Below, one piece after another: positions 17,072-45,589 of a DNA stretch of 64,000 nucleotides. How positions within the stretch are numbered: the stretch's first letter is position 1; every line of letters starts with the position of its first letter. The DNA is from Asterochloris sp. CNOR1 (lineage: Eukaryota; Chlorophyta; Trebouxiophyceae; Trebouxiales; Trebouxiaceae). The notes beneath the pieces were generated by a model, which worked only from the letters and a program-made list of their open reading frames with translations, searched no databases and had not been told where the DNA came from. The position numbers and the translations under genes were made by a program. The DNA lies in assembly GCA_963969365.1 (NCBI GenBank), contig OZ017747.1:1674001-1738000 (forward strand). Direction: 5' to 3'.

Positions 17072-20000
17072 ATGTTGTTCTGGGTGGCATCATTTGCAGC
17101 TCTGGGTGGCTTTCTGTATGGGTGAGCCTGATTGCTTATGCGGGCAGCAGCCTGGCACTGGCTGCAGAGCACACTTTAACAGTGCTTTGCACTGAGTTCC
17201 TGGCTGACTTCCTGCAGCTATGATCTGGCGCTCATTGGTGGCGCCTTGGGCCACATCCGCGCAGAATTCCACCTTTCAGAGGTCATGGTGGAGATGGTTG
17301 TGGGGGCGGCCAAGATTGGTGCAGTTTTCGGTGAGCGCACGCTGAGGTGTACCACCCAGCAGCACGCCTGCAGACGCTTTCTGTCACCCCATCTGCAGAG
17401 CTCACTGCACGCTGCCCTGCAGGCACCTTTCTTGGCGGGGCTATGATGCTCTACTACGGGCGGCGGAAGACCATTGGCATTGACAGCCTGTTCTACATGA
17501 CTGGGCCAATCATCATGGCTGCGTCATGGGATGTCACGTGAGCAGACAGGGACCTTTTGCAGCAATGGGTGGCCATAGTTTCCCTGGGGGCCCAAGGAGC
17601 ATGGTCTCTGCTGTCGGAGTCTGGAGATGATTCACTGTGCTCTGCCAGGTTCACTCAATGTGGCCAGGCTCTGCTGGTGCCCAGCATCAGCACCTGGGCT
17701 GGACTGGTGATCTGCTGCACTGCGCAGCACCCTGTCTTCTGATGACGCAGCATACTGGGGCTTCACAGCAGTGCCCGCCAGGCTGCGTGGCCCTCAAACA
17801 GTCAGCCAGGGTATGACTGCCGAGGAATTGTTGCATCAAGCCAGCGCTTCCGCCTTGCTATGTGCCAGCAACAGGTCAGACGGGGCGCGCTTTGTGGTGG
17901 CCAAGCGCCCTTGACCGCTGAGAAGGCGCCCCAGAACCTGCACCTGCACCTGCAGGGACCTGATGACTGATTGCTATTTGTGTTGAATATTGACTTTCAC
18001 ATGCATCCCATGGCAGCAATGTGATCACTGTGAAGTGGCATTGCAGCTTGTTGAGCTGGCACCTCAAAAGCGCTCAGGGCAATCACCTGCCTGCACGAGT
18101 CTGGTGGTGGGGCGCTCATCGGCATTGTGATCTCTGCCGTGGTGGCATGATGCTCAGTGTCAAGCAGGCGCTCTGGGTGGCGCCTCAGATGCCACAATTT
18201 GTCTGCAGGGGGATCACCAGTCACTTCATGCTCGGCATCAGCATTGGCAACCTTGCCATTGCAGCAACACGTTCAATGCCAGGCAGGCGCCCCAAGCTCT
18301 TGATCTGTGCCCCAGAACGTGCGCCTGCCTGCAGGGGCCTGGTCATTGGCCGCTTCGTGCTGGGCATCGGCATCGGCATCTCAGCCGTGGTGGTGCCCAC
18401 CTACCTGGGGGAGGTGGCCCCAGCTCGCCTGCGCGGGCGCATGGTGGAGCTGTACGAGGTCATGCTGTGCGCTGGCATGCTGGGAGCCCTGCTGGCCGAC
18501 GTGGCGCTCATGCATGTCCCAGGGAACTGGCGCTGGATGGTCGGGATGCCCTTCTTCCCCTCTGCCATCACAGCATGTGAGTTGGGGTGCAGACTGCCAG
18601 GTGCTGCCTGCCAGCAGCGTGGGCATGTCCCTTGCTGCCTGCCTGGGGGCTGCTGCTCAAGCTGAGAACTGTGCAGATGCTGCCTGTTGCGATGCTGGGT
18701 GCCCTGCCAGCCGACTGTGGCGCTTCTGCGTGTTCTGGCGATGGATGGAACTGGCGACGGATATCAGGGAGGCCCTGTGTCCCCTCAGACAACATGGCAC
18801 GTGAGTGCTGCCCCCTTGCGGCTGCCGATTGCCAGTGCTTACGGTGTTGCCCGCGGTCTTCCCTGTTGCCCTCTCAAGTTGAGGCAGAAGGCGGCCATGC
18901 CACCTGCCATCACAGCGGAAAGGCTGGACAGGGCTCAGGAGGGCTGCTACGCATTGCTTGATGGCGGCCACTGCTGGAACAGGGGCCTGTACTCTGCAGC
19001 AGCGATTTCCTGTGCTGCCCTGCCCTGAGTCCAGGTTGGGCACTGCACAGTCCAGCACACTGGCATGCCATGTTTGTCTTGCTGCCAGCTGCAGCAGGCC
19101 TCCTCCTGCCTCGTTTGGTGCCATGAATTCAGGTGTCCCCCTCGCATTCCTGCTGGTGGCCTAATGTAGGCTGGACAGTGCGGTGCCATGGCAGCACTTT
19201 ACAAATGCGCTCCAGCCTGCCCCTCAGTGCCAGCAGGGCCATAGTCGTGCTGGTGCTGTGCTGCAGTTGGGCTGTTCATTCTGCCGGAGTCCCCACGCTG
19301 GCTGGTGGTCAACCAGCGCCTGGACGAAGCACTGGCAGTCATTCACCGCATCTACACCAAGACCGTCCTGCCTGAAGGTGACTGCGTTGCTGAGGTGCAC
19401 CAGTCAGCAGTGCATGCCATTGCATGGCTCAGCATGGCGATGGCTATTCCTCAGACAGCCCCTGAAGTGGGCCCACTGCAAGGTCTGAAGGCTGCGCCCC
19501 CTGCCCACGATTGGGGCCCACTTGCACACAGGCACTGCATACACATCAACTGGCCCTCTGCTGGTGAGCTCTGTGGCGCTGAGTCTCATGCAGGCACAGC
19601 CTGGCTGTGCCTGCTGCAGGAGGAAACCCAGAGAGCCGCAGGGGAGGTCCAAAGCTGACCCTGCCTGATGCAGGGTGATGTGTCAGGTGTGTGGTGCCAA
19701 AGCAGCAGGGCTCAGTGTAGAGGCCAGCGTGTGACCTGCTGCAGGCTGCCAGAACAGCACCGCTGAGGTGGAGCATGAGCTGATGGACCTGTGGAGCAGC
19801 GTGGAGAAGACCAAGGCAGCCAGGGATGCGCAACGGGAGAGCATGAAGCGCTCCAAAACACGCAGCGATCCCGCCCAGGGGGCCCTCGCGCAGGTGGGCA
19901 GTCATGGTCGTCCAGCCGCCCCTTGTGGACCTGGCAACAAACTGAAACCATACTCCTGCCTCGTTCGTCCTCGCTGCAGAGCTGCGCAGCGGCGCGGCAC

Positions 20001-23000
20001 AGGCATGCTCGCACAGGCTCTGAAAGTGCTGGTGCGAATATTGTTGTTTGAGCCAGTGCCCAGGGCAGCCTGCGGGCATGCTCCTCCCACTTTACAGTTG
20101 GCTGCCACCTGCTGTGCCGCAGCTGCGGCTTCCCAAGGTCTGGAGCCTCCTGGAAGACATGTGTGGTGCTTGAGAGCTGGTGCTCATCTGCGCAGGCGCC
20201 CATGCTTTCAGGGCCGGGCAGCCGTTCCTGCGCTGGCTGGCATGAGGCTCTGACTGGTCCTCTTGTACAGGCTCTTCCTCTGCGGTCCAGCACCAGTCAC
20301 TGGCCGTCCTGATGTGCGTTGTATCTTGCTTTTGTGCAGGCTGCTGCGCTTGTTTGGGCCCCTGTTCTCCATGGCAAGGGCAGGCGATGTATGCCTGTCC
20401 TGGCTTGCTATACTTGACCATGCGTGTGCGTCGCCTGATGTGCACTTGCTCCCATGAGCAGGCCACCACGCTTCTGGGCAAGGGCGGGCGGGGCAAGCGC
20501 TTCCACACGCTGGAGCAGGATCACCAGACCAACAGTGCTGCTAAGCATGGGCCCGAGGGAGGGTCTGATGTGGAGCTTGCCCTGCAGCCAGAGGCTGGCG
20601 CTGGCGCTGGCTACGTGCAGGACCTGCAGGTGGGCTGCTGGAGAGGGTGGTATAAGGCTACCTCACATGGGACGCAAGCAAGCCGCGCCTGCAGTGGCAA
20701 ACTTGGAGGCTTCTCCGCTACAATTCATGGCATCCTTCAGCCTCAACAAGGCACACGCAATTGGCTGTGCTGCTGACAAAGCCCACTCAGCCTATCACAA
20801 TGCACGCAAGTATGTCACAAATACTGCAGAATCAAGAGTTTGCGTCATGCAGGCAAATGGCCATCTGCCAGCAGAACTAGAGTCGGTGCCAACAGGCGGC
20901 AATGATCAGGAGGCTGCCACCATCTCTCTGATCAGCATGGCTGAGCAGAGAGCGCCAGAGGGGGGTGACAAGTCGCCTGCACGCCTGCAACAAAATGGCA
21001 GTCCCAGCCAGGCTGGGCTGCAGCTGACGCCTGTGGAGACGCCTGCGTCACCGGCCAGCAGCTCTGGCAGTGCCCTCGACCCAGGCCTGTATCGCAGCCT
21101 CAGCATGGTGAGTGGGACAGTCACCCTGGCGATGGCTGCTGGTGTTGGTGCAGCACGTTGCAGTGAGTCAGGCTGCGTCGAGCCCTGGCTGCCAGGCGCC
21201 AGACGAAAGCTTGTGTTTGCAGGAGTTCGCAGTGCCTTGCGGGCATAGAGGCTCTGGCCTGGCCTAAGCAGCAGACACTGTGCCAATGCCTGTTGGCAAG
21301 AGCTGTACTTGCAGTGGGTGCAGCCCGGCTGCTGTACGCGCTCTCAACTTGCCCAGCAATGGAGCCCCGCGTGCATCATGTGATTGAAGGGATGGCGCAG
21401 TGCATGCAAGTCAGAGCTGCACTGCAGGTGCATGCAGAGTGGCATGCAGGCCTCGAGCAGCTACCCTGTACTCTGCAGGTAGCATTGCAGGGCTGGTTCC
21501 ACTCTCCGTGACAGCAGTAGCTGGCACTGAGGTCAACCCACTCCTGCAGGGGCGTGATTCACCCTGCCTGGCAATAGTAATGGGTGCTGACGTCAGGCCC
21601 TGAGGCCTGCACTGCACCTTGCCTGGCAGCAGGAGGCGACTCTGCAGTCCACTCACCTGCCTGCAGGTGCCGCGGGGCCTTCCGCCCATCCGCACAAAGT
21701 CAGAGCCTTCCCTGACGCCCATGGGCATGCCCGAGAAGGGGTTTGGAGGGCGGGAGCGCTGGCTCAAGCGCCGAGAACGCAATCAGAAGCAGCCCAGCCC
21801 CACTGCGGTGAGCAGTCCGCCTGGCCCCCCGTCATGGCTTCAGACGTTCCTTGCTCACTGAAGAAAGTGTGCTAAGTGCTGCAGACAGCAGCCCCACCAT
21901 GGTGAGCCCACAGACTGGCCCCTGCAGCACTCCAGGCAGACATGGCCCCATGCATGCCCACCTGCCTTGCTGAAGCGCAGAACTCGTCACAAACAGCGGC
22001 CGGCTCCACTTGGCAGCAAGAGCTTTGGAGCCCAAGCTATATATGGTGTGCCCACACAGCTTGGCTGAGCTTGCCTTGGGTGTGCTGGGCTGCAGAGCCT
22101 GGGCCGTGCCTGCGTTGTGGCTGACTGGGGTCCCCCTGCCTGCAGAGCCGTGAGGAGGGTTTCTGGTCAACCCAGGCGACCATGCTCCAGGACATCTGGT
22201 TGGTCATGATTGGCCCTGAGAGGAAGGCAGTGTGGGTGGCTATCCTTTTGGCCTTCTTCAACCAGGGCTGTGCGTCAACGGCAGTCATTAACTACGCTCC
22301 AACTGTGCTGGAGGGAGCGGGCGTCAGGAACTATGCAGACGCCACTGCCTGGACAGCAATGATCACGGGCGCCAAGGTGAGGCCCTGTGGTGCTGGCTTA
22401 TCTGCCTGCGCACAGTGGCATACAGCCTGCACCGCATCATGTCACCTGGCTGTCAGATGCCGGGGATCATTGTGTGCACCGGGCAGCTGTGCGCTCTGGG
22501 ATTTACCTGGAAGCAACAGGCCTCCCAAAACGAGGCTCAAAGCTGTTGGGAGCTGAAGCCCTGTCATACAGATGCTGTGCACTCTCCCCTCAGGACCGCC
22601 CTGCTGCTGCTGCACATGATGGTCTTGTTCACCACTGCTTCAGTAGGGGGTTAACTGCTAGAACACTGATGAGGTCTGAGTCCCGAAAGCCTGGCTGCTC
22701 TGCTGAAGAAGGTAGGCCAGGGCCTGGACACAGCAAGGAACACTGCTTGACCTTTGTTGACTCTTGAGTCCTGCCATCCTTGCTGCCCTGCTGCAGACAG
22801 TGGGCGTGTTCATCGCCGTTGGTCTGGTGGACAGCAAGGGGCGTCGTCCCCTGCTCATCTGGGGCAGTGCCATCATCGCCAGCTCCATGGCCCTCATATC
22901 TCTGGGCGACTACAGCCAGAATGTGCCTCTCGTCCTGTTTGCCATGTGCGCATTTATCCTCTCCTTCAGCGCAAGCTATGCTGGGATCTTCTGGGTGCTC

Positions 23001-23631
23001 TGCAGCGAGATGTTCAGCATGAGCACCAAGTCGCCGGCAGTGTCAGCAGCTGCTGCCATGCTCTTCCTGGCAGGTAGGCTTGCATTGTGGCTTGAGGTCT
23101 GTGGTGTGCCACTGTAGTCTGCAGCCTGAGCGGTTGCCTTTGGGAGAGCTCCCAACCTGCCTGCACCAACGCTTGCAGGCTCTGCTCATAAGCAGCTTGC
23201 CAGATACACCCTGGTGCGCTGCAGGTGCTGTGTCAAATCTTTGCTTCCTCTCACTCCACACAGCATTGGGGGCAGCCTCATTTCTGATCTTTGGAGGCAT
23301 TGCAGCTGCCGGAGGCATTTTCGTGTACTTCATGGTGCCTGAAACCAAGGGCAAGACCTTGGCGGAGGTGCAGGCCTTGCTTGGGATTCAACACAGCGGC
23401 GAGGTGATCACACTACAGCAGGCCGCGCTGCCCAGGGTGGATATTCCGGTTGTACAAAATGCAGCCAAGTCAAGTGCTCAGCAGCAGAAGGCATCGAAGT
23501 CCCAAGATCTGCAGTCACAGTCTCTTCTAGCGCACAATCACATCGGCTCAGACAATTTGCATGCTCACATGAGACCTTCAGGAGAGCTGCCGTCAGACTG
23601 GGCCAGCTATGACCGTGCCTCCCGCCTCTGA
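17072..23631 (+). CDS. MFS sugar porter with long central loop (tonoplast monosaccharide-transporter-like), 752 aa
   Basis: Predicted sugar/H+ transporter of the major facilitator superfamily. Twelve exons sum to 2259 nt: 17072-17121, 17218-17330, 17423-17537, 18335-18576, 19267-19377, 19745-19893, 20462-20629, 20853-21107, 21667-21807, 22146-22376, 22797-23073, 23225-23631. The N half has GGFLYGYDLALIGGAL in TM1, YYGRRKTIGID, GRFVLGIGIGISAVVVPTYL and EVAPARLRGR. LPESPRWLV follows TM6. The C half has FNQGCASTAVINYAPTVLE, DSKGRRPLLIWG and MVPETKGKTL, all sugar-porter signatures. Between the halves lies a hydrophilic loop of over 200 residues (exons 5-9, with KTKAARDAQRESMKRSKTR and a Ser/Pro-rich part). 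This resembles plant tonoplast sugar transporters, so vacuolar location is possible but inferred. Start chosen as the ATG opening TM1; an upstream exon cannot be excluded, nor can an extra loop exon in 19894-20461. Introns 3 and 4 contain decayed copies of exon 4. Confidence 0.87.
17740..18334 (+). repeat. Decayed copies of transporter exon 4, 5' edge
   Basis: The intron before exon 4 holds several degenerate versions of its start. Around 17925-17970, CCCCAGAAC...CTGCAGGGACCTGAT matches the 18311-18350 stretch leading into the exon. At about 18117-18146, ATCGGCATTGTGATCTCTGC matches the exon's ATCGGCATCGGCATCTCAGC. At about 18209-18270 a copy starts after CTGCAGGG and reads HFMLGISIG, against the true RFVLGIGIG. 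Copies have stops or frame shifts and are not coding. Confidence 0.65.
18670..18900 (+). repeat. Decayed copy of transporter exon 4, 3' part
   Basis: In the intron after exon 4, 18685-18770 reads GCGATGCTGGGTGCCCTGCC, then AGCCGACTGTGGCGCTT and GGATGGAACTGGCGACGGAT. This mirrors the exon's 18472-18545 sequence encoding CAGMLGALLADVAL and GNWRWMVG. Further on, near 18900-18920, CTGCCATCACAGCGG echoes the exon end CTGCCATCACAGCAT. Offset is about 212 bp. Confidence 0.6.
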
Positions 23632-23978: not shown

Positions 23979-26900
23979 CTAGCCAATGACTGTTTGCCTC
24001 GTGCCGTTGACCACTGTTGTACCAGCAGGAGAGGATCCCGTGCCAGGTGTGGAGGGAGAAGAGGGCTCTGCCGTGACCGGGGGAGGGGATGGCGGGTCAA
24101 TGTCTGTGCGCTGGGTCCCATCACTGCCGGGAGGGGGGGCTTCAGCGGAGGGGTCTGCTGTCAGCTGGCAGTTCGCGGCGCAGAGACTGGTCAGCTCAGT
24201 GGTGGAGGGAGTGTGAGAGAGCCGCACGCTGGGGGACGCGCCCTGCAGGCATACAGCGATGTCTTGCAGTGCACCTGAGAGCTGAGTTGCAATGGTTTGA
24301 GCTACCGCCCCAGGCTGTTGTTGAGGGTGTCTACAGTTCGCTAGGAGATGGATTCACACGCCAGTCTGGTGCCATGCACGGTGAAGGCTTCCCAGCACCC
24401 CAAGCAGCCATCAACGTGAAGCAACGAGTGCCATAGTGTTTTACTTGACGCCAATGGCGTTTGCCCTGTGGCCTGCCAAAATGCACACCTGGGGGCACCG
24501 CAGTGCTGCTGTGCCCTTGCCAGCCACATTGCTATGCAGTTGCCCGAGCGCACACCTGAGGGCATCGCAACGCTGCTGTGCCGTTGCCAAAGGTGAAGAC
24601 GCCGCAGTTGGGGGTGGGCGGCACCGCTGACGCCGTGCTGTTGCATGTCCAGTAGGGCACGTCCAGGCAGGCAAAGTCCTGGCACCACTCGCAGTCCTGG
24701 GCGATGCTGGTCCCGTCAATCTGAATGCCTACGACGCCCACAGCCAGGATGCCAACGATCGCTGCAGCTGCTGCCATCTGGAGGGCGACAACAGCTGCTT
24801 TGCCAGCCTGGGACCTGCCGCCCTGCAGGTGCAGGGGACCCAACCAGGGTGCTGGCAGGAACTATATCTCCCTGTCTGTTACTAGTTGCACAGCAGCAGT
24901 TGCTTGTATGGCTGAGGCAGCAACAGGTCAGGCTTTTTCTGACAAGCACACAGGCAGCCTCTGCAACTGGGACCCATTGCTACCAGCATCTGCCACACTG
25001 GTCTCTGACGACAGGGTAACTCAGCGCAGGGCAAGCATTTACACGGCTCTGTGGCGATAGGTCAAGCATCAGCAGTGTGGAGTGTGGAATGACACGGCGC
25101 TCACCTTGTCCTGCAAGCAAAAGACTGTTGCCCAGAGGAAGCCCAGCACCAGACCAGCGATGTGCAGCCAGTTGTTAAGAAGTGGGGCAAAGCCAATCAG
25201 GATGAGCACAGCTGCATTGAGCACCAGCAGAGGCCAGGTTACCCACTGCCGGATGTAGACGTGCCAGTTGATCAGCTGCTCAGCCCAGGCGCCGCCTGCA
25301 GCAGGGCAGCACACAAACCTCAGTGTGACAGCTTGTTCAGCTGCTGAAGCAATGGCAGGCCTCAGAAGCGGAGGCATACCTGACCTGATCAGGCATCACT
25401 GCAGCAGCAGGGCAGCATGCCAGTACTGCAGCAATGTCTCTTGAGCAGCATGATGCACACACTGCTGCTGCCGACAGCCTTCTCAGCTGGGAGCAGCGAT
25501 GCCCACCAGCACAGACAGGCAGCGCTGAGGCACATTCAGCAGCCATGCTGAGCGCAGCAAGCAGCAGGCACGCAGCACAGCCAGGCGTAGCAGCAGCATG
25601 GCGCCTTGTGGCGGAGCGGCGCCGACACCACCTGCGCTGTAAGGTAAAGGTCTTTCTTTACCGTCTATGTGGCCTAAAGGACTCACCAACAAGGGCGCAG
25701 GCACCGCCGCCAGCTGCCACTGCCACCAGCTCAGGGGCCAGGTTGACGGAGACCAGGCCCCCACCCACAGCCCCCAGCATGTACAGCGCTGGGATGTTCA
25801 GGCCTGGGTGGGGCAGCACGCGCGCGAGGGATCGCCCAAAAGTCCAGACCGCCATGTCGCACAGAAACAGGTGAATGATGCCTGCAGCACGTTGCACAGC
25901 GTCAAGGGCTGTTGGGGATGCCCGTGCATGTGCAGGCGCCAGCTCGTGCTGAACTTGGCTGTGCTCCACTCGCCTGTCACTTTGTCAGCAACACGCTGTC
26001 AGACAAAGCCAGCTGGCTGAAAGTGGCATCACACAGATAACACTGCACTAAGCACGCAAAGCACTCGTGGAGGAAGCCCCAGCCAGACAGCACCAGCAGA
26101 AAGGCCTCTCAGGGGCAAGCAGATAAGAGATTATCAGGCTTTGCAGGAGTCAAGACCTGCTTGGCAGGGCACCACCAGTGCCTGTCCATCCCCCAGGCTG
26201 CTGGCAGCCACACCAGCACACAGCGCGCACTCAATGTGTCAGAACACCATAACCAGCCTGGGCATCAATGCAGCGCTGTTCAGAGCCGTCAGTGCAGCGC
26301 ACCTGCCACCAGGAAGGGCGAGGCCAGCAGGCGCCACCATTGGTGCTGGCTCCCCGCGATCCTGTCGCGTTCCAGAGCCCCCAGACGCATCAAAGGGCCT
26401 GCTGAGGTCCCTCCAAGTGGGTTCTCATGCAGGGGCACAAGAGACCAGCCCCCAAACCACATGGCAATGATAAAGAGGACTATGTAGGCAGCTGTGCAGG
26501 CGTAGAGGGTGACGTGGAAAGGCGAATAGGTGTGCTCCCAGGCATTTGCCTCTGAACGTTGGCAGTGGGCTCTGTGGCCAGAGGGGCTGCAGGGGAGCAG
26601 CAGGTTCATGGTTGATCAGTGCATGACGCAACTGCTTGACCTGTGCAGTGAGGTGGCGGAGACGGCCGTGCAGGCCACAGTGTGCCATGTTGCTCGCAAA
26701 TGTGGAGAGGTCTATTGGGTGGCCTGAGGGCTGCATGGGCGCCGCCACTATGTTTAATGTAGGCTAGGGTGGTGCAGGAATGCAACAGGCTGTTGCACGA
26801 CTGACTCAGGCAGCAGCACACGGCAGTCTGGATTGATGCCAGCCTGCAAGCCAGTGGCTGATGCCACAAATTTGCTGCAATGCAGCAGCGTACTGCGCAA

Positions 26901-28195
26901 GCAGAAGGGGTGCCTCACCAGGCTGGCTGCTGGTGCCAGGCCGGCTGCTGGTACATGGGATTGGCAGTGACCTGGGGCCCTCCAGTGCCCCTGTCGGGTG
27001 GCTGCTGCTGGCGGCCTCTCCTACCCCTGCAGGACCGCACCAAGCAGTGAGCTGAACCAGCTGGTGTCAGCAGGGAACGCCCCGGATACACTCTTCCTCC
27101 CATCTCAGGAAAGCACCCCGCTATGCGAATGACAAGTCAGCTGCCCAACACCCAGCGCAACTGCAGCACATGGCTGACAACAGGGCTGGACGACGTAGAC
27201 AGTGGGCACGGTGAGCAAACCACAGTGCCAGAGCCACGAACCACCCAGCGTGCTGCAGTGTGTGCCACACTGAAGGCTGACCTGCGTGCCCGCGACATCT
27301 CCTCCTCCTGTAACCGCAAGGCTAGTGCCAGGTCAGGGTCCATCAGGGGCTGGCTGCACTGCCGCTGGGGAGCTGCGAAGTCGTCCTCAGGTGGAATGGG
27401 CTTCAGGCGGCCATCTCTGCCCTGCAGCAGAGTCCAGCAGTGTGCGTCTGCAGCTGGAGGCAGAAAGAGCGTCTCAGGCCCAGTGCTGATGTCCTGAACA
27501 CTGCAAAGTGGGTCTGCAAAGGGCTAGCCTCAGCAGTGCCTGGTGCTCTGCCAGGCACAACTGCAGCAGAGATCCCGTCGTAGGGGGACTGCAGGTCGCT
27601 TTTGCAGGGCGCATCACCCTGCCGGGGGCCTCTGCCTGGTGCCAGCACGCCCTCCCTGCCGGGTGAGGGGCAATCTTAGGCTCTCTGGCATCACCCACCA
27701 GCATCCACTCTGCGTTGCGTTGTGCCCAATCCTCGATGGATTTGCGCATGGCCAGGTTGGAGGTGAGCGCCACGAGGCGCTGTAGGGCCAGCCCTGTGGC
27801 TGGGCACAGCAGGTTGCCTTGGCTGAGCCAGCGCTCAATGTACCTTCGCTCGTACCTGCAGGGCACCATGCGCGGCGGTGAGTGGGGGAGGCAGCCACAG
27901 GTGATGGTGGGACGGGATGCCTCACACATGTGCGTGGCGCTGCCATGCTGAGCTGCCTCACATAGGTGTGTGGAATCCCTGTGCAAAGTTACTGCATATC
28001 AGGAATGATATGGCCCCCGACCTGCATGCCAGCTGTCTTTGCATTGCTCATGTCTCAGCAGCATGATCTGTGCCACTGGGCACTGCCAGCTGCTGCATCT
28101 CACGTTTGACCGGTGGGCAGCAGCACAGGATCCCTGAACACGCGGAAGCTGATGGGACAGAAGAAGCTGTCAGGTGCCCCGATGTCTGCTGCCAT
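23979..28195 (-). CDS. U-box / UIM-like / rhomboid pseudoprotease fusion, 592 aa (alternatively two adjacent genes)
   Basis: Nine minus-strand exons stay in phase from ATG 28195 to the stop at 23979: 28104-28195, 27618-27855, 27282-27421, 26919-27026, 26303-26586, 25687-25881, 25105-25295, 24556-24822, 23979-24242 (1779 nt). Exons 1-2 encode a U-box (FFCPISFRVFRDPVLLPTGQ, then YERRYIERWLSQGNLLCPAT), the E2-binding fold of E3 ligases. Exon 3 has a ubiquitin-interacting-like helix DPDLALALRLQEEE (137-150). Exon 4 is a linker (NPMYQQPAWHQQPA). Exons 5-8 are a rhomboid membrane domain: TM1 near 216-238, QWWRLLASPFLVAGIIHL, and NNWLHIAGLVLG with the TM6 His397. The catalytic serine of GxSG is Gly345, so proteolysis is not expected. 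A Cys-rich loop (DCEWCQDFACLDVPYWTC) recalls plant rhomboid-like proteins. The chain may be one ER/Golgi membrane E3, or two genes joined by my model; the exon 3-4 junction is the weak point. Confidence 0.68.
24484..24595 (-). repeat. Echo of rhomboid exon 8 3' edge with its donor
   Basis: Plus-strand 24484-24522 (CACACCTGGGGGCACCGCAG...) matches 24551-24589 (CACACCTGAGGGCATCGCAA...) at 34 of 39 positions, 67 bp apart. On the minus strand both read GTAALRCPQ followed by GTGTGC, so the intronic copy keeps the donor site. Confidence 0.75.
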
Positions 28196-28285: not shown

Positions 28286-29619
28286 GCCTGCCTCTGCAGG
28301 GTCCTGCTCCCACATCGCACACTATCTGTCATTGCAGGCCGCCCTTGTACAGGTCTACATTCAGGCATCAGCACATGACCGGGCGTCAGCACTGTCTAAG
28401 CACCTGGCACTGAGTCTGCCGCTGCCGCTGCCGGCGGAAGGGCAGCTCCAACCTCTGCCATCCAGTGTGCGGCCAGGGCATGGTCGCCTTTGGCCCTGGC
28501 CAGCAGATTCCGCCAGAGTGACGCATCGCCTGCAGCAGGAGAGATGTGCATTGCCGCAGCTCACAGGAAGAGGCTCCCCAGAACCCAATTACACAAGTCA
28601 GCAGCACTGAAAGTTTTCGCACTGACTTGCATGAGCCCAGGCAGACTGGAGTGGGGGTCAAGCCGCATTGCAGGCAAAGCCATGCATGCAGAGCTGCAGC
28701 ATGTCGCAGCAGGGCCACCTTATGCAACAAAAACCTAGCTGACCTGCTGAATCCTGTTCACTGGCCTCAACCGATTGTGTTCTTGAGGGCCCCTGTGAAC
28801 TGTTGCCACCAGTCACCAGTGGTGCCTCCAGATCTACACAGCAGCTCAAGCAATGTCAGATCACACACTGTCAGCTTAACTGCAAGGCCAGCTCACAGGC
28901 TGGCAGCCAGACACTCAGGTCAGCAAATAGGCTGTCAGGGCAACCACAGGTTTGCGCTCAGGGGTTTTGGATGATGTACTCCGAGCCACGGCAGTGACCT
29001 GAGGCGTAAGTGCTGTGCGGGATGCTGTGCAGGCTGTTGCAGGGGCTCATGCCCTTCTGACTTGCACCAAACCTCCACAGCTGTCACAGATAGTTGTCAC
29101 CATCAGGGGTGAAGCAGGTCTTACCACCAGTGGAGAGCCGCGGCAGATCCATGGGAGGAGCTGTTGGCGTGGATGGACAGTCCTCCTGCCCTGGGGGATT
29201 GTCTGCTGGCATCTGAAGAAATGGGCTGGCCGTTGTAAATGCGGATGACAGCAGCACCTTTGATTGCCACCTTAGGCCCTGATGACCATCAGGAGCTCAT
29301 TGCTTCCTTTTGAACCTTGTGCACTCTGCATCGCACCCGCCATCTGGCATCTGGCTCAGCCTCCACCGCTGCCCGCAGCTGAGCTCAACACAGTCAGACT
29401 GCCTGTTGATCTGCCGACATGAGCGGCAGAAATCGCTTGATTGCTCTTCTCAGACTGATCAGAGCCCATGCCCCACCTTCCTGGGTCAAGGAGTCTGGTA
29501 TGTTTGGTGGAGCCCAGATCAGGTGAGGGCTGGCAGGGAGCATGTGAGGTCGCTCAAATGACAAGCTGAGGAGGAGTCGACTGTGCAGGCTCCAGACAGG
29601 CCAGCACGCGTCATGGCAG
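28196..29619. other. Intergenic: 5' flanks of the U-box and PTGES2-like genes
   Basis: Apart from the U-box echo, no exon can be supported. The first exon or exons of the PTGES2-like gene (N terminus and start codon) should lie in the right-hand part, but I could not identify them. Confidence 0.4.
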
Positions 29620-31478
29620 GGGTTTCTGCCAAGCCTCTCGGCTGGGTTGGTGGTTGCAGCAGCATATGCAGGCGGCCAGCTGAACAAGGCCCATGCAGAT
29701 CAAGGCCCAAGAGCAGAGTCTCTCATAGCAGAGGTGACGGTATGTGCTGAGTACATTAGGCCACATCCTGCACCTGGCCATGGCCAGCGGACGATCAGCT
29801 GAAGCAGCCAACCCCTGCCCCTGCAGGTTGTGCCAATTGACCCCTACGTCAGGCCTGCAGAAACCCATGGCCTCCCGCGACAAGTCATTCTGTACCAGTA
29901 TGAAGTGTGTCCATTCTGCAATAAAGTGAAGGCATTCCTGGACTACAACAAGGTGGGCAATACCCTTGCTCTGACGGCTTTGCCATCACGGCAGCAAGAC
30001 TATTGGCGCGGAAGGCACTCTGACGGTCGTGGCCGCCTCAGCAGATAGCAGCCCTGCTACATCGTTTGCAGATCCCCTACATGAAAGTGGAGGTGAACCC
30101 CCTGACCAAAAAAGAGCTGAAGGGCACTGGCATGAAGAAGGTGCCGGTGGTCTTGCTGGACGGCGAACTTATGGCAGACAGCTCTGCCATCATCAGCAGA
30201 CTGGCAGCTGAGGTGGAAGCTTCAGCAAGCAGCAGGTGGGCCTGCCAGCACAGCAACGCCCCAGAGCGGGTGAAGCATGCGCGTCCTGCTGCTGTGGGCA
30301 GTGCTTGCAGGGCTGCTGGACTTGCCGTGCATGGCAGAAGCAAGGCCATTTGTATACCTGCCATGGACCTGTGGTAGCAGGCCATAGGCAAAGTTGCCAC
30401 AGGGCAGTCCAGCGGATCATCTTGCAACCCTGCTGCATTCAAGCCACTGCGAGAGACCAATGCCTGTGCTGCAGCAGGAGCCAGGAGGAGCAGCAGCCGA
30501 GGGGCTCCTGGTGGTGGCCCTTTGGCGGCAGCAGGAGCAGCCCACAGGAGGCTGCTGCTTTGCCGTCAGCACAGATTGCGGTGCAGCAGCTGACCAGGCA
30601 TGAAGGCGGCGCAGCGCAGCAGCCGCAGTCGCCTCACCCTGTACCAGGCAGCATGACTCCCAGAGAGGAGGAGGCTTACTGGCGGGAGTGGGTGGACCGT
30701 AGGTCAGCCTGACATGCATGCAATTCTGCAATGCAATAATGGCTTGGAGCGCGGCCACAGGCAGCATTGTGCGAGGCACCCGGCACCTGGCCCATCCAAT
30801 TGATGGCACTGGCCCAACCTGTTCAGTCAAAGAGCACAGGAAGGCACCATCTTAGACTGCGTTTGCAGATTACAGAAAGCACTGGCATGTCAGATGCAGA
30901 AGCAACCAACATGCGTGGCTGCCTGCAGGTTTGTGAAGGTTGTCACCGTGAACATCTACCGCACTGCGCACGAATCCTTCCAGACCTTTGACTACATTGC
31001 AGACACAGGCAACTTCAGGTGAGCCCTCGCAAGAGGCACTGCCACGGCTGCTGGGCGTGCCTGGCAGCAGTGCTCTCATCGCTGCCCCTTGGCCCTGCAC
31101 AGCACCCCAGTGGCAACTGGCCCCTGCTGCCTCTGCAGCTGGTGGGAAGCTGAGTCGGCCAGGGTGGTGGGTGCAGCCATGATGTGGGGCATCTCAGGGC
31201 GGCTTGTCAAGAAATATGGCATTCAGGGAGACCTGCGGGAAGAGCTCTATGCAGCCGCTGAGGAGTGGGTGGCAGCCCTGGGCGGGCGGGACTTCATGGG
31301 TGGCGCCTCCCCAAATCTGGCAGATCTGGCTGTCTTCGGGGTCTGCAGAAGCATCACAGGCTTTGACACCTTCATGGATCTCATGCACCAGACCAGCATC
31401 AGTGCCTGGTATGAGCGCATGTTCAAGGCTGTTGGGCGCAGCTCTGCCATCTCAGACCCCCTTCAAGTGAAGAGCTGA
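29620..31478 (+). CDS. PTGES2: Prostaglandin E synthase 2-like glutaredoxin/GST membrane protein, 5' end unresolved
   Basis: Homologue of microsomal PGE synthase 2, conserved also in plants and algae where its substrate is unclear. Seven exons sum to 1059 nt (352 aa): 29620-29733, 29827-29952, 30072-30235, 30478-30702, 30929-31018, 31139-31478; the first exon (GFLPSLSAGLVVAAAYAGG) is probably the end of the N-terminal membrane segment. The glutaredoxin-like domain has VILYQYEVCPFCNKVKAFLD with a CPFC active site, then EVNPLTKKELK, KKVPVVLLDGE and DSSAIISRLA, all diagnostic. The GST-like C domain has NIYRTAHESFQTFDYIADTG, FMGGASPNLADLAVFGVCRS and ISAWYERM. An Arg/Gln/Ser-rich insert (30478-30640) separates the halves. 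A start codon was not found in the listed exons. The stop lies only 113 bp before the amine oxidase start. Confidence 0.88.
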
Positions 31479-31591
31479 CTTGTTGAGCCTGAATCTGAAT
31501 GCGCATTCGGAAACCCAAAGCCAGTTGCAAAAGCTCGCTACTCTGCACTGCGTGTGCTGCGCATCTTGTCACAAGCCCATCTCGCCAGGGG

Positions 31592-34500
31592 ATGCTCAGC
31601 AGCAGGGTCCCTCATGAATTTCCAGTAGGCCGAAATGCTGTCAAGCCGGGTGCCCCGTCTTCTGTGGTGAATAATCTCCTCACACTTTTAAGCAGTAATG
31701 TGCCCAGGCAGCAAGGGCCATACAGAGCCCTTGGCACAGAGAGGCCCCACCCTTTGGACCAGCTGACAGCTGAGGAAGTCCAGACAGCCGCAGATTGCTG
31801 CAATGCTCATGCAGGCCAGCAGGGCCTGCACAATCTCCGATTCAATGCAGTTAGCCTCATGGTAGGCCAGTCAGCAAAGCTGGGTCAGCCCTCCATCGGG
31901 AGCCTGGGCACCTGATCTGTCCCTTCCCATGTCCTGCAGGAGCCTAGCAAGGCTGAGCTGCTGGCCTACGAGGCTGCAGCGATGCAGAGTGACGCCCCCC
32001 AGCGCAAGGCGACTGCCATTCTGCAGCTGCCCCAAGGAGACACGGTGGTGGAGGCCATTGTTGACCTCACAGCCGAGCCGGCAACGTTGATCTCATGGGA
32101 ACAGGTGCCTAGGGCATTGACTTGTCAAGGTGCTGCATATCTTTGCCTGGCGGTCTGCTGAGCCATGTGCTGCATGTTGACAGCTCCCAGGTGCCTGCGG
32201 AAAGCTTGATCACAGCTCACGCAGATATCACATGGTTGCGGCTGATCTCTGGCGAAGACTAAAATCAGTTCCTGTGGCTGTCAAGCCACTACGCCGCAGA
32301 TGTGAGCTCAGCTTTCAGGCTGGGCAGGCAATGGGAACCACCTGCTGCATCCCGTGGCAGCTGTGACCTCCGAAGTTGCCCAGGACGGTGGCTCAGGCTC
32401 ATGGCGCAAGAGCATGTGCCTTCTCAGCTGCATCACGTGGGCTGCAGCGACCAGTTGTGAAGCCCCACATGGTGTCTGGTCCTGCTGCAGACCGTGGTAG
32501 CTTTGCCAGCAAGGCCCCTGACCAGCCCATCTTGCAGACCGTGGTAGCTTTGACGGCAAGGCCCCTGACCGGCCCATCTTGCGCCTGAGCTGCAGTGTAA
32601 TGTAGACGGGATGCCTTCAATGACTGAAAGTGGCCTGTGACCCTGCAGGCGCCTGCTGGCAGCCCATGCTTTTCATGAATGCCACCTTGTGCAGATCCTT
32701 GCCAGAAAACGTGGCTCAATCGCTTCTGGTTGTGGTGCAGGTGCCAGGGGTGCAGCCCATGGTCTCCATGGACGACACCCTGGAGTGCGAGGATATTGTG
32801 AAGGCTGATAGCAGTGTGCGCAGGATGCTGGCAGAACGCTATGGGATCACAGACATGGCTAGCATTGCTGCTGATCCCTGGTACTATGGCGATCGCACAG
32901 GTGCGCAAAATCGCAGCCCTTTCCGAGGTGACTGTTGTGGATGTGCTGCCAAGGTGCTCCTCTGGCTTGGACTTACAGCCCATCCATCTGCTGGGCGACG
33001 GCACCTAACTATGGCAGTTACACAGCTGTGGAGACTGCGGCCCCACCTGAGCCAGATGCCAGATGCAGCCAATGTCAGGCTTCTGGGTGTTTGTGATGGC
33101 TGTGGTCTAAAGCTGCCTGGTTCCAGAGACGCTGCACAGGCCTGTCATTGGCATCTGAATGCAACAGACCTGCTGCAAGGACACTCCTTTACCGTTGCCC
33201 CAACACCTGCTGGATGCTGGCCCAGCTGTGACATGCTCCTCCTCAGTTTGTTTCACCAGGCATCAGCTCGCCTGTATGCTGGCGCCCCACGCCTGCCGTG
33301 CCAGACGCCGCTGCGTGCTTATGGCCCCCACCTTGTGCGCCTGCTGCAGCTGATGACCACATGCTGCGGGCTGCGGGAGGGAAGCCGGGGCGCTACATGC
33401 AGTGCTTCATGTATGTGCGCAGCTGCCCCGAGGACAACCACTATGCCCACCCTCTGGACCTGGTGGTCGTCCTGGACATGAACACCAAGCAGGTGAGCCC
33501 CTGCTGCCTCACCTGGCTGGCTGCTTCAGCTGGCTATGCAGCCTCAGCTGGCTGTGATACAGGGGTGCGTCAGGCACGCCAGATCTGTGTTCAGCAGGCG
33601 TGCACGTGTCCCCTGCAGGTCAGGCCTGTTCCGCACTGGCCACATCCTCGTCACGAGTCCTTTATGAGGTTCTCTGCAGCACAGCTGATGGCACAGCTGG
33701 TGCTATCGCCAACTCCCTCTCAATGCGGCAGTCTTGCAATAGCTTTTGCCCTGTGTAGGTGCTTGAGTTCATTCACCACGATGGGCCGCCCCCAGCGCTG
33801 CCCCCGCTGAACTCCAACTTCCATGCCAAGCTGGTGGATCAGGAGCGTGGCTTCAGGTGAGCACGCCATGCAATCGCAGGAGGGTGTTTGGTGCTGGCTG
33901 CCGGTGCTTGAATGACTCAGGTACTGATGGCGCAGAGGAGCTGACCTTCTTGCAGCAGGGCAGGGGCTGGCTGGGACCAGGCCCCTGCTAACTGCTATGC
34001 GACGTAAGGTACTGTTGTAGGGTGTAGGGATGGTGGGTTCCGGCAAACACCAGAGATCGTCTCTCTATCCATGCCGAGCAGTTTCTGCTAGTGCTGCTCT
34101 GCTCAACGCTGCAGCAGCATTGCAGAGACACTGCTGAATGTCATGGGTGACTGACTTGCAGGACGGGGCTCAAGCCCCTGAATGTGACACAGCCTGAGGG
34201 GCCCAGCTTCCATGTGGAGGGCAGCCATGTGAGCTGGCAGAAGTGGGAGATGCGCATTGGCTTCAACTACAGGGAGGGGCTGGTGCTGCACAATGTCGGG
34301 TAAGTGGCAGAGGCTTCTAGGCCTGAGGCAGGCCATGTCCACATTCCTCCAGGCTGCTCCACAACATTGTGTCACTGGCACTGTATGTTTGCCCACATCT
34401 GAGGCTCAGGTGCTGGTTTGCACCAATCTAGAACTTGGCGCGATACACAATAAGGGTCTATGCATCATTGCTGCCTGCAAAGTTGAGTCATTGTGCCCTG

Positions 34501-37500
34501 CTCAGCAGCCAGACCTGGGTGCAGAGACAGCTTCAGCTGAGTTGTGTCCATGTCCATCAGTCATGTCCTGGCTGCGCCTTGCACTGAATGAGGCACTCAG
34601 TCACAAAGCAGCCCTGTCATCACAGGCAGCTGGCACCAAACTGTGACTGTTCCCCTTCTCAAGCCCCGCTCCAGCATTGCCTTGGCCTCAGCACCTGCAA
34701 TGCAGCCCATTCTGTACCTGCACCAACCACATGCAATGCCTGCATAGCTGAGCTCATCGCCTGCACACAGACCCTGGCTGTTATGCTGGCATGTGGCCGC
34801 ACACAGGGTCTTCAGGATAAGGTGCTCCTCCCCTGCACAGGTACATGGATGGTGGACGTGTCCGTCCCATTGCCCACCGCATGAGTATGGCGGAGATCAT
34901 TGTGCCCTACGGTGACCCACGCAATCCCTTCCAGAAGAAATGCGCCTTTGACATTGTGGACTATGGCCTGGGCTTCTGCGCCAACAGCCTGGAATTGGGG
35001 TGTGACTGCCTCGGGCACATCAAGTACTTTGATGGCATGGTCAACAACAGCAGGGGTGAGGCCGCCTTGCAGTGCTTGTTGGCTGCACCCAGGCTTGTCA
35101 GAGTTGTGTTTTGCTGTTTTGGGAGCCGTGCAGGGTCACGCTGGTGCCGGCCGCACTTGTACTCTGCATCCTGCATGGCAAAGGCTGCTGTGCCTGCAGT
35201 TGCAGTCAACCAAGCTTCAGTCGACCTGGTCTCCTTGAGCCTTCCTCCCCCCCCCCCTCCCCTTCTTGCAGGCAGATCAAGTGCTGCACGGAAACCCTTC
35301 CTGAGCTCTGCCCCTCACCCTGCTACAGGGGAGCCCATGCTGATCAAGAAGGCAGTGTGCATGCACGAGGAGGATGTGGGCACCCTGTGGAAGCACACCG
35401 AGTATCGTACCGGGCACTCGGAGGTTCGCCGCGCCCGCAAGCTGAAGCTCAGCTTCCTGGCCACCATCGCTAACTACGGTGAGCACAGCCTGGGGAGGTG
35501 GTGCCCGTTAGCATGAGCAGGCCCAGAGAAAATAATGCCATGCTGGCCAGCAGAGATTTCTTGGCCTAATTGTCCAGAACAGTTCTTGTCATGCAGTAAA
35601 CATGGCAGCAGACTGAACTTGGGGACACCATTGCAGATGTACCTCAATAGATGTATATTCAAAGATGATCACATGGAGTGGCGTGCTGTTTGGGCTGTCC
35701 TTTATGTGCAAACTCCATGGCAGGCATTGCCTGCCAGCCAGCGGCTGTGGCAATCATGACAAGTGCACCTGAGAAGCGTTCTGTTGCATATGGCTGTGAG
35801 GTGTGATTAGTAGGCCCTGGGGCAGGCATTTTATGCCACTCAGCAGACTGGGCAACATGCTGAGCCTGCTGATTGCATCACAAGCTACAGAATGCTGCCT
35901 GGACCATCATGTGCTAATGCAGACGTGTCACACCCGAAAGGCAGTGTCTACACATAGCTGCTGCGTGCCTCTGATCTGGCTGTGCACCACCTGAACGTTT
36001 CCGCTGCCTGCCTGCAGACTACGGAGTGGCAGTGTCTTTCTTTCAGGACGGGACAATTGAGTGGGATGTGCAGCTCACTGGGTGCCTCAGCACTAATGTG
36101 CTGAGTCCTGATGAGCACGAAGTGCCCACCCATGGCACCCTGGTGGCGCCTGGGCTCAATGCCCAGCTGCACCAGCACTTCTTCTGTGTCAGGCTGGACA
36201 TGGCTGTTGATGATGACAATGGGGGCGCCAACCTGACTGTCAGTGAGGTAGGGCCAGGCCGCTGCAGGCTCTGCTGGCCTCAACCCTTTGCACTGCCAAT
36301 CTCTGACAGCTGGGAGCCCCCCTCTCCAGTTCCCAAAAGCCGTAGCGACCAATTGAGACCCGTTGCTGCTTCCTTGTGGCACTAGGGCATTTCTTTCACG
36401 TCAACCTCTTCAGGCTGTTGTGCACAGCAAGCTTGCACAGCCCTGAGGTCCCCACTGGTGCCTGCAGATCAATGTGAGCCCGATGCCGCTGGGGCCTGAC
36501 AACCCCTACGGCGTGGGGTTCTCTGCTGACGAGACAGAGTTTCAGACAGAGAAGCAGGCCATCAGAATGGTGAACCCCTCCACCTCGCGCATCTGGAAGA
36601 TCAAGAACCCTTCCAAGCTGAACAAAATGACGGGTGAGGCTTTGCAGTCAGGCGCTGCCCTGCACACGTCGCAGGGGGACGCGTAGTGAGTACAGGCGCT
36701 GTGCAGCTGTCGAGCTGTAAGGTTAGAGGCTTGCCTGACAGGTCAGGTCTTTGCAGCCAGGCATGCTTAGGCTTGCCTGATGGTGCTGGACATGGCGCTT
36801 GAGGTGGCAGTTTGCGCCCCTGCTACCGGTGGGGACATGGCTGCATCTTGTGGGCAGCTCAACAGCCCCCAGGCTGGCAGCAAAAATAAATAAATGCATA
36901 TATACATGTGCTGACCGGGTGCAAACCCTGCAAGTAGACGCATTGGCTGCACTCTCAGCAGGCTGCAAGATGTATTTTAGCTGTCATTCTGTCTGTGCTC
37001 AGCAGGGCAGCAGCATCGAAGCACTGGGCCAATGGCAGCCTTAGTCATGCTTGCAGGCGGGCGCATTGCTTCCATGACAGGCCCAGCAACCTGCTCATTG
37101 CTGGCCCAAGTTGTGCCCTGCCCAGAGGCTGCTGTCTGCAACCCTGTTTATGCAGGCAGTGGGAAGCTTGGCACTGGCAGGGTTGACCGTGAACAACTGC
37201 TGCCTGTGTGAACCCAACAAGCGTCTCAACTGCGCCCACACTTTTTCCGATGCGCTTGCTGACAAGTCAGCTGCCTGCCTGGAAACTGATGCCAGCCCAG
37301 ACTGGTTTTCCTTGCTCATTTGTGATCATATGTGATGGCGTGGACTTTGCCTGTAAGCTGATGCCAGCCCACACTGCCGCCTCTGACTGTTGGCCGCAGC
37401 GGTGCCTGTGTCAGGTGAGTCCTGACTCAGTTAGTCTGGCCGTGTCGTGCAGGCAGGCCCATTGCCTGGAAGCTGATGCCAGCCCCCAGCCCGCCTATGT

Positions 37501-38931
37501 ACGCCCACTTCACTAGCAGCCATGCACGTCGCGGGGCCTTCGCCACGCGTCACCTGTGGGTGACACCCCACAGCGACGACGAGAAGTGGCCTGCAGGGGA
37601 GTATCCCCTGCAGAGGGAGGACGATGAGCGGGCCAGGGGCTTGGTGCACTGGACCAACCAGGTGGGGCTCACTGCAGCAGGGCCGAAGTGAGGACTTGTG
37701 CAGCAACAAGTGTGGCCTCCTGCTGCAGTGCCTGGGACCCTGGGCCTGGCAGGCAATCAGCAGCTGGTTGTGACCAGCTGCCATGGTCGCGGTTGCAGCT
37801 CTGCAGCGCTGAGGGGCAGGCAGAGTTGCTGACAGCCTTGGTCTATCGCCTCCCACAGCTGCTCTTGGTTTTGGGAAGCTGCAGCAGGTGCTAGGTACTT
37901 CGATGTGAAGGGCTCCGCTGATTCCTGCCCCGTTCTCTGCAGGACCGCCCCATCGCCAATGCAGACTGTGTCATCTGGCACACCTTTGGCGTGACACATG
38001 TGCCCCGAGTGGAGGACTGGCCAGTCATGCCGGTGGAGCACGCTGGCTTCATGCTGAAGCCAGCCAACTTCTTCGATGCCAACCCTGGCCTGGACATCCC
38101 TCTGTCCCGCAACGCCGCGTCCCGCGAGCACGGGACTGTGGTGGCCGCCTGCTCGGTGTGCGGCTCCAAGGGCCACACTGGCAGGAACCCCCACCCCCAC
38201 ATGCACACCAGGTGCGCAGAGTCTGCCTGCCTGCCGCCAGCGCGGCGCAGCCCCTGGCATGCTACGGGCTTTGTTGTGCTAGTGTTTGTGCTGGGGGGCC
38301 AGCTTGGCAGGCATGAGGTTCTGTCTCTTGTCTATGCTTACTGAGCATGCCTGCATGCTTGCTGAGGGCCTCATCGTCGTCCATGTGCAGTGTGCTGTCT
38401 CTGTTGCTGTGACTGACGCGAGGTAGTTCCTGCAGGCTGGATGCCCCTCCGGCTCTGGCTTGTCACGTGCCCTGCCTTGCACTGTCTGCTCACTGACTCG
38501 ACACCTGTGTCCTGTGTCTGCTGCGGTGCGTTCCTCAGCTGCAGCTTCAGTTCCAAGCCCTGTGCTTGGCTGTCGCGCATGTGTCAGGCTCTGGGGCCAA
38601 GGTAAGTCCACCCTGCCAGGGGTGCTGTGTGGCCGGGGCTTGGGGCTGCAGTGCCAGGACCTGCAGAGCCTTCTGGCAGCGCTGATCTGCATTGTCCCTG
38701 CTGCCTGGCCTGCTGCACTTCACCTTGAATCCGTGTGCCCGGTCTTGCAGGGCTCCTGACCACTCTGGACGCCAGCTCATCCACCAGCACTGCAGCGCTT
38801 GCAATGCTCCGGTTGGTGCATCAGGGGCCAACCCTGTCCCTGCTGCAGCCCCAGCGGCCCCCGCCTCGAGCAGCTGCTGTGGTGCAGACAGCGGCAGCGT
38901 CCAGGCCAGCGGCGTGCGCAGCCGTCTGTGA
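31592..38931 (+). CDS. Peroxisomal copper amine oxidase (TPQ enzyme), 797 aa
   Basis: Oxidises primary amines to aldehyde, ammonia and hydrogen peroxide. Thirteen exons sum to 2394 nt: 31592-31861, 31940-32104, 32741-32900, 33350-33492, 33759-33856, 34162-34299, 34841-35055, 35329-35478, 36018-36247, 36468-36633, 37453-37661, 37943-38211, 38751-38931. The cofactor motif ATIANYDYG spans the exon 8/9 junction; Tyr446 is the topaquinone precursor. Copper ligands fit His498 and His500 (QLHQHFF) and His667 ([11 protein letters not shown]). The catalytic-base region is FDIVDYGLG, and EDWPVMPVE is also conserved. Splicing 38211 to 38751 gives a low-complexity tail ending GVRSRL; SRL is a standard PTS1, so peroxisomal import is likely. 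Start chosen as ATG 31592; an in-frame ATG at 31499 is only 20 bp after the previous stop. The intron before exon 11 carries two echoes of that exon. Confidence 0.93.
32488..32581 (+). repeat. Tandem 47-bp duplication in amine oxidase intron 2
   Basis: Two adjacent 47-bp units start at 32488 and 32535, each beginning CAGACCGTGGTAGCTTTG. They differ at only three or four positions, so the duplication is recent. It does not match an exon edge that I can see. Confidence 0.85.
37277..37485 (+). repeat. Three copies of the amine oxidase exon 11 start
   Basis: GCCTGGAAGCTGATGCCAGC (true exon, from 37464) recurs at 37349 as GCCTGTAAGCTGATGCCAGC and at 37277 as GCCTGGAAACTGATGCCAGC, each about 21 of 22 identical. 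The true copy encodes AWKLMPA. The other two lie in the preceding intron and sequence around them has decayed. Confidence 0.8.
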
Positions 38932-39480
38932 GTGCACTGGCGTGTGTTGCCTCGCTGTATGGGGAGTGCACAGCTGCAAGACCGCAAGGGGGCCCAACTG
39001 CTGGCACACCGGCATCCTTCCCCACACCACCGTCTTGAATGGCAAACCATGCAAAACTTCAAGGATGTGGAATGGTCTACAGTACAAAGGGTCACGCCAC
39101 TCCAGAATCGATTGCAGCATGTGCGTACCTTAAGCCAGTTTTCGCCCTTTCCTGTCTTTTCCCGATGTGGCCTGCCCTGAATATCTCCAGTTTTGTTGCA
39201 ATACAGCCCTGCCGCCTGGCTCTGACTGCGTCATGGCCCACAAGGCTGTAACACCAGATGGCCCCAGCCTTTGCTGACATTGCTTTTTACTGCAGAATTC
39301 ATTGCATGGCTTTTGTGCAATTGAACTAGATTCCCCAGGCGGTACAGCTGATGGAAGTGTGCATGGCTGACAAACCGGCTCTAGGTCACGGTTGTAACGC
39401 ATGCAATTTCTATCCAGAATTGTGAACCAGAGCGGCTGGGATATTGGGGAAGGCGGAGCAGCTGCCTGGTGGCAGAGAGG
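38932..39480. other. Intergenic: amine oxidase 3' flank and kinase 5' flank
   Basis: TGTAA pentamers occur at about 39246 and 39393 on the plus strand and could be polyadenylation signals of the amine oxidase. A long minus-strand open frame crosses the region but has no recognisable domain. No further gene is supported. Confidence 0.4.

Positions 39481-45589
<6,109 letters not shown>

Follow-up and report, generated by a model that had tools for sequence, protein, structure and literature searches.

Rhomboid pseudoproteases bind transmembrane domains and regulate membrane proteins (PMC9180352; statements on this and the other cited papers refer to the consulted sections of each). In yeast, the rhomboid pseudoprotease Dsc2 of the Dsc ligase assesses the length of transmembrane (TM) segments, the ligase itself being a separate RING protein, Tul1, and membrane thinning by Dsc2, tested with a Y53A,R54A mutant, was reported to be required for substrate degradation (PMC11513148). 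Dsc2, RHBDL4, UBAC2, and RHBDD3 are rhomboids with ubiquitin-binding parts (PMC12615303), and KOMPEITO, an inactive rhomboid of the Arabidopsis Golgi with a long C-terminal lumenal domain, affects accumulation of the callose synthase CalS5 (PMC9180352). The coupling of a ubiquitin ligase (E3) to a rhomboid pseudoprotease is already known; new at the locus described here would be the presence of both in one chain and the U-box type of the ligase. The locus occupies 23979..28195 on the minus strand of a 64,000-nucleotide stretch of the Asterochloris sp. CNOR1 genome (contig OZ017747.1), which we call the window and whose numbering is used throughout.

The 30 U-box proteins of Chlamydomonas carry 13 extra domain types, and rhomboid is not among them (PMC4378952). 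The word rhomboid had 0 occurrences in the consulted text of that paper, and a term count likewise found none in that of a plant U-box review (PMC8875423). The initial annotation of the window knew of no described protein with this domain order, and none with a U-box and a rhomboid was found in the open-access literature searched, subscription papers and domain databases lying outside that search. The novelty is limited because it concerns one gene model in one genome.

We read the locus as one gene encoding a single-chain, membrane-anchored U-box E3 that would pick transmembrane clients with its own rhomboid pseudoprotease, and give this reading a probability of about 55%. By computation, the locus yielded a gene model, two Pfam domains, the loss of the nucleophile serine, and seven hydrophobic segments.

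Gene model and the junction between the two halves

A purpose-written gene finder with exon, intron, and intergenic states on both strands was trained on 244 kb of the same genome, and genes overlapping the target were excluded from all retraining. Its seed consisted of the U-box and rhomboid codons of the target and seven of its eight introns, the contested intron being omitted, and the splice consensus that it learned was sharp (donor CAG/GTGAG, acceptor CTGCAG/G). In a first setting, with free transition rates and GC donors allowed, the intergenic state shrank and neighbouring genes merged; this setting was replaced by fixed rates and GT-only donors, with reliance on relative split costs and an internal control. 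The split cost is the score lost when an intergenic base is forced into an intron, and it served for calibration because the model probabilities were too confident. Six trainings were compared, namely the free-rate run, the fixed-rate run, and four variants with other model orders, gene densities, and seeds, the last being other window genes predicted by the fixed-rate run.

The trained gene finder preferred a model of 565 residues, the output of the finally updated fixed-rate model, in which a single frame runs across nine GT-AG exons from ATG 28195 to TAG 23979:

28104..28195, minus strand: exon 1, with ATG 28195 and the start of the U-box; start posterior 0.71
27699..27855, minus strand: exon 2, remainder of the U-box; donor posterior 0.997 after 27699 vs 0.0025 after 27695
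27711..28177, minus strand, split by intron 1: U-box domain (Pfam PF04564), residues 7-79
27282..27421, minus strand: exon 3, linker and helix resembling a ubiquitin-interacting motif (UIM); posteriors 0.976 for acceptor 27421 and 0.998 for donor 27281
27299..27340, minus strand: UIM-like helix DPDLALALRLQEEE, residues 111-124, with Gln at the UIM Ser position
27027..27281, minus strand: intron 3, whose splicing joins the two halves (the contested junction); donor 7.15, acceptor 8.58, forced split cost 13.9 nats
26919..27026, minus strand: exon 4, a linker of 108 nt rich in basic residues, Gln, and Pro; posterior of acceptor 27026 0.82
25117..26345, minus strand: rhomboid domain (Pfam PF01694), residues 247-385
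26303..26586, minus strand: exon 5, TM1, loop, WR motif, and start of TM2
25687..25881, minus strand: exon 6, remainder of TM2, TM3, and TM4 with the lost nucleophile serine
25105..25295, minus strand: exon 7, TM5 and TM6 with retained His370
24556..24822, minus strand: exon 8, TM7 (by hydropathy) and Cys-rich tail; posterior of acceptor 24822 0.98
23979..24242, minus strand: exon 9, Cys- and Ser/Thr/Pro-rich tail and TAG 23979; posterior ~0.5

The initial annotation had proposed nine exons in one frame from the U-box ATG to the stop, joined across 27282/27026, and this was borne out by the GT-AG sites and by the Pfam U-box and Rhomboid domains of the product. The frame used was the best-scoring of the three in all nine exons and scored positively in eight; exon 9 (coding score -3.5) was negative in all three frames, and splitting intron 8 cost 0.2 nats. 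An end of exon 2 at 27695 also held the frame (562 residues), but the gene finder preferred 27699, 27421, and 24822; the end moved to 27618 in one of the four re-seeded variants.

The 27282/27026 junction was retained in 6/6 trainings. Compared with the 572 GT and 907 AG sites of the minus strand between 20000 and 32000, its donor lies just below the 99th percentile (7.17) and its acceptor above it (8.20). Any intergenic base within intron 3 had a probability of 1e-6, and the whole stretch from 25882 to 27700 was free of intergenic bases with a probability of 0.99986. Upon removal of acceptor 27026, the best path skipped exon 4, kept the frame, and still joined both halves. The poly(A) signal TGTAA occurs only at 28593 and 25043; it is missing from the junction but equally from the 979 nt 3' of the stop, so that its absence at the junction carries no weight.

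The same region could be read as two same-strand neighbours, with a U-box gene ending in intron 3 (TGA 27139-27137) and a rhomboid gene that has its start at ATG 26956 or ATG 27103. Upstream of exon 4 its frame stays open as far as TGA 27139, and both ATGs lie there or in the exon, in frame with the rhomboid. This goes against the earlier statement that the rhomboid half lacks an obvious start codon, though the gene-start posteriors of the two ATGs are low (3e-11 for 27103 and 1.4e-4 for 26956). The start score of ATG 26956 (3.08) is close to that of ATG 28195 (3.41), and gene finders are known to merge tandem genes, as this one did at 31467-31939. With two genes, however, a 3' untranslated region (UTR), a promoter, and a 5' UTR would have to fit into 33 or 180 nt, and the additional sequence that they could use scored as non-coding, both where intron 3 is read through to the stop (27281-27140, -6.2 nats) and from ATG 27103 to exon 4 (27103-27027, -6.1 nats), although two genes could also do without these stretches. 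The best forced two-gene path, with a 4-nt last U-box exon (27140-27137) and a rhomboid start at ATG 26956, was worse by the split cost of intron 3, which is comparable to those of introns 4 and 5 (13.4 and 14.7 nats). We consider the two-gene arrangement unlikely.

These costs can be placed on a scale. Over the 116 introns predicted in the window, the median was 14.4 nats and the lower decile 4.8; intron 6, which like intron 5 interrupts the rhomboid domain, cost 7.4. The internal control was a boundary at which the gene finder had wrongly fused a glutathione S-transferase (GST)-like gene (19.8 bits, Pfam cut-off 24.9) to a copper amine oxidase gene (445 bits; 31467-31939), and splitting it cost 4.9 nats. 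In the four re-seeded variants, splitting intron 3 cost 15.2-17.5 nats, compared with 0-8.8 at the wrong-merge boundary.

Retention of intron 3 would give a bicistronic mRNA, in which the U-box frame (first open reading frame, ORF1) is closed by the stop at 27139-27137, a short way ahead of the rhomboid frame (ORF2). Bicistronic loci were reported to be prevalent in green algae; in them the ORF1 start is weak and ORF2 is preceded by few start codons (PMC11291117). The retained intron would indeed place the in-frame ATG 27103 next after the stop at 27139, but the strong splice sites favour intron removal, ATG 28195 has G at both -3 and +4, and the interval from 28195 to just before 26956 holds 6 ATGs when spliced and 8 when the intron is retained. 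Because of these bases around the first start and the 6 ATGs of the spliced form before 26956, a bicistronic mRNA is unlikely. A U-box and a putatively inactive rhomboid in one chain is the best-supported gene model.

Skipping exon 4, a cassette of 108 nt, would leave the frame intact; the linker could therefore be alternatively spliced.

Domains, linker helix, and predicted topology

The U-box half matched PF04564 with 58.3 bits (cut-off 21.4) over positions 1-72 of the 73-position profile. In the PDB it matched U-box ligase chains such as PUB12 and 7c96_B (best E 2.9e-15), with CHIP lower (6.8e-6), and its CPIS, GQTYER, and CP-T segments aligned with the U-boxes of solved structure. Ligase activity with a ubiquitin-conjugating enzyme (E2) is predicted from these similarities. 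TAL-effector chains ranked among and above the U-boxes in one search, at no more than ~6 bits per repeat, and were discarded as an artefact of summed scores. Compared with its own genome, the U-box half matched four places within the window and 10 others, the best with 51% identity on contig C13. Of the U-box paralogs found, the nearest is on that contig as well (L036:4021-4678, plus strand), with 53-56% identity over two stretches.

The helix in exon 3 was described in the initial annotation as a UIM. Its segment MDPDLALALRL pairs with MDPELAMALRL of RPN10, and phmmer gave an E value to RPN10 of 0.0084 for a chosen 34-residue query and of 0.26 for the whole protein. The core of a UIM is Ala-x-x-x-Ser; the exon 3 helix has AxxxQ in place of AxxxS. 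Pfam reported no UIM match (PF02809) in the spliced protein, in a 630-residue form, or in a 31-residue peptide, and a genome-wide listing of PF02809 with 12 places did not include the helix. As its conserved Ser is Gln and Pfam did not report it, we call it UIM-like; what stands of the earlier assignment is the resemblance to the RPN10 helix.

The rhomboid half matched PF01694 with 61.9 bits (cut-off 22.6) over positions 2-141 of the 143-position profile. Its solved relatives up to E 10 were iRhom1, iRhom2, and, weakly, GlpG (E 0.085). GLSG of GlpG and GPAG of iRhom1 align to AAGG, so that Gly318 stands at the position of the nucleophile Ser. The HxxxN motif of TM2 has a role in active rhomboid proteases; HILFN of GlpG aligns to HLFLC, with His kept and Asn replaced by Cys. 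His370 of TM6 is kept (HIAG aligns to HISG), as it is in iRhom1, and so is the WR motif (Trp250-Arg251), to which Y53-R54 of Dsc2 probably corresponds. Since glycine replaces the nucleophile serine, we regard the rhomboid as a pseudoprotease, which by its sequence should be proteolytically dead. A kinship with Derlins was not recovered, iRhom1 and iRhom2 being the closest relatives of solved structure; DER1 (PF04511) was not among the 4 Pfam families reported up to E 10, a range in which the HMMER filters drop most matches above ~0.1. In its own genome, the rhomboid half gave five matches inside the window and a single further one, with 33% identity, on contig C14.

Hydropathy placed seven hydrophobic segments at residues 191-209, 257-275, 288-306, 312-330, 347-365, 368-386, and 399-417, with a TM1-TM2 loop of ~47 residues. 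The Cys-rich tail carries N-glycosylation sequons at 450, 469, and 557, and its C-x-W-C pattern may resemble the tails of plant RBL proteins. The presence of a U-box and of the basic sequence RARRGRRGR implies that the N-terminus is probably cytosolic; with seven helices, the Cys-rich tail would therefore be lumenal. The interpretation in the initial annotation of a single chain with a pseudoprotease is supported by the best gene model and the active-site residues, and its ubiquitin-binding helix remains the weak part.

Proposed role, points against it, and genomic setting

In the mechanism that we propose, the N-terminal U-box would recruit charged E2 in the cytosol, and client-borne ubiquitin may be bound by the basic linker through its UIM-like helix. 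In a membrane of the secretory pathway, the rhomboid pseudoprotease with its seven helices would engage transmembrane clients, and the tethered U-box and E2 would ubiquitinate the clients thus selected, so that one chain would do what Dsc2 and Tul1 do as a pair. In this scheme the topology and the compartment, the choice of clients by the rhomboid, and the E3 activity are inferred. A self-contained membrane E3 is the simplest reading because of the precedents of Dsc2, the ubiquitin-binding rhomboids, and KOMPEITO, and by analogy with these a role in membrane-protein quality control is plausible. That the fused E3 and rhomboid pseudoprotease form a one-polypeptide quality-control ligase, in which the pseudoprotease would recognize clients and the U-box ubiquitinate them, is a tentative proposal to which we give slightly less than even odds.

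If true, the fusion would be genetic evidence that rhomboid pseudoproteases can be direct substrate receptors of E3s. Derlins and Dsc2 sit in multi-subunit ligases, in which the share of the rhomboid is hard to separate from that of other subunits. With both functions in one chain, the system would be minimal, and client choice by the pseudoprotease would be open to one-protein reconstitution with a ubiquitin-activating enzyme (E1) and E2.

The fusion could also be real with the rhomboid as a mere membrane anchor, or with the U-box as a module for localisation or turnover, and with no selection of clients by the rhomboid. Some of the U-box proteins listed for Chlamydomonas have transmembrane motifs, so that tethering alone is a known theme (PMC4378952), but a near-complete rhomboid with the WR motif, the TM6 His, and seven hydrophobic segments exceeds the needs of an anchor. 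We hold this alternative to be rather unlikely.

Several points weigh against a single-chain E3 with its own client-selecting rhomboid. The putative ubiquitin-binding role of the UIM-like helix is weak and unproven. The coding score of exon 4, which links the halves, is only +1.2 nats. In five of the six trainings (the free-rate run and 4/4 re-seeded variants) the 5' end moved upstream, and in four of the six (the free-rate run, the fixed-rate run, and two re-seeded variants) the gene ended in exon 8 at 24532 instead of at 23979. The re-seeded variants are not fully independent, since their seeds were genes from the fixed-rate prediction. Intron 1, which lies within the U-box, had a split cost of 3.3 nats, showing that genuine introns can be cheap, and the wrong-merge control is one case only. 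At other loci of the window the gene finder both merged and split wrongly. Finally, the matches obtained in pattern scans of viral_contigs (two scans) and genome_contigs (one) included no relative confirmed by tblastn.

Each of the six training paths deviates from the nine exons at the 5' end or in the last exon, which leaves the start and the end of the gene uncertain. From the initial annotation, the frame, the junction, and the two domains stand, whereas the start-codon claim does not hold as worded and the ubiquitin-binding helix is weak. Possible extra 5' exons that continue the U-box frame lie at 28404-28529 and 29101-29152 on the minus strand and would give forms of 630 or 636 residues. 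They were favoured by the free-rate run and all four re-seeded variants, without support in the fixed-rate model, and in the 630-residue form Pfam again gave U-box and Rhomboid, with no further domain.

The genome searched comprised 56.4 Mb in 21 contigs, with at least 19 U-box and at least 12 rhomboid places counted, the rhomboid listing having missed the window's own domain. It gave 31 chlorophyll a/b-binding matches and its genes are rich in introns, as would suit a photosynthetic and most probably green alga. No second fusion was seen among these places, since the closest other U-box and rhomboid are ~20 kb apart, on contig C8. DER1-family matches were found five times, on two other contigs; this protein would therefore supplement the Derlins and not replace them.

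The window also contains other genes. On the plus strand at 30081-39662, the GST-like gene (a sub-threshold Pfam match) is followed close behind by the copper amine oxidase gene, and their short spacing makes them a candidate for co-transcription. An MRS2-like magnesium transporter (Pfam 90.5 bits, cut-off 27) is encoded at 45849-51427 on the minus strand. A predicted 189-residue protein, encoded at 52244-53708 on the plus strand, is Cys-rich, with several N-x-S/T sites and, by eye, a hydrophobic N-terminus; it had no Pfam match. The gene finder predicted six further genes:

136-9269, minus strand: predicted gene
9682-16205, plus strand: predicted gene
17072-23077, plus strand: predicted gene
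39664-45017, plus strand: predicted gene
55534-56461, minus strand: predicted gene
56783-64000, plus strand: predicted gene, one gene that the gene finder appears to have split

Among these are a WD40 protein with a coiled coil and a sugar transporter, for which Pfam gave WD40 and Sugar_tr when N-terminal parts were searched, as well as genes whose translations read as a probable kinesin, a cyclic-nucleotide-binding kinase, and NECAP. The gene at 56783-64000 is presumably that of glucosidase II alpha.

Comparison with known systems

The iRhoms have a large lumenal TM1-TM2 loop and are not known to carry an E3 domain. iRhom1 and iRhom2 are the closest solved relatives of the present protein and share with it the loss of the nucleophile Ser and the retention of the TM6 His; the loop here has only ~47 residues and does not reach the size expected of an iRhom. 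Derlins pair with Hrd1. They resemble the present protein as pseudoprotease rhomboids in ubiquitin-dependent removal (endoplasmic-reticulum-associated degradation; PMC12615303), and differ from it in that a PF04511 match was not reported here.

KOMPEITO is not known to carry a U-box. Like the present protein, KOMPEITO is an inactive rhomboid with a long C-terminal lumenal domain, the lumenal position of the tail being predicted in our case, and the term "u-box" had 0 occurrences in the consulted text of its description (PMC9180352). RHBDL4, UBAC2, RHBDD3, and Dsc2 each combine a rhomboid with a ubiquitin-binding element in one chain, as may be the case here, but for these proteins ubiquitin binding is described and a ligase domain goes unmentioned in the consulted sections, and the element of RHBDL4 is C-terminal (PMC12615303). 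The plant and algal U-box ligases share the U-box, by both Pfam and PDB matches, and differ in that rhomboid is not among the partner domains given for Chlamydomonas (PMC4378952). The Dsc E3 complex of the yeast Golgi likewise couples an E3 to a rhomboid pseudoprotease, by which transmembrane clients are assessed, its Dsc2 being described as similar to derlins and UBAC2; unlike the chain proposed here, it consists of separate subunits, has a RING instead of a U-box, and includes the further subunits Dsc3, Ubx3, and Gld1/Vld1 (PMC11513148).

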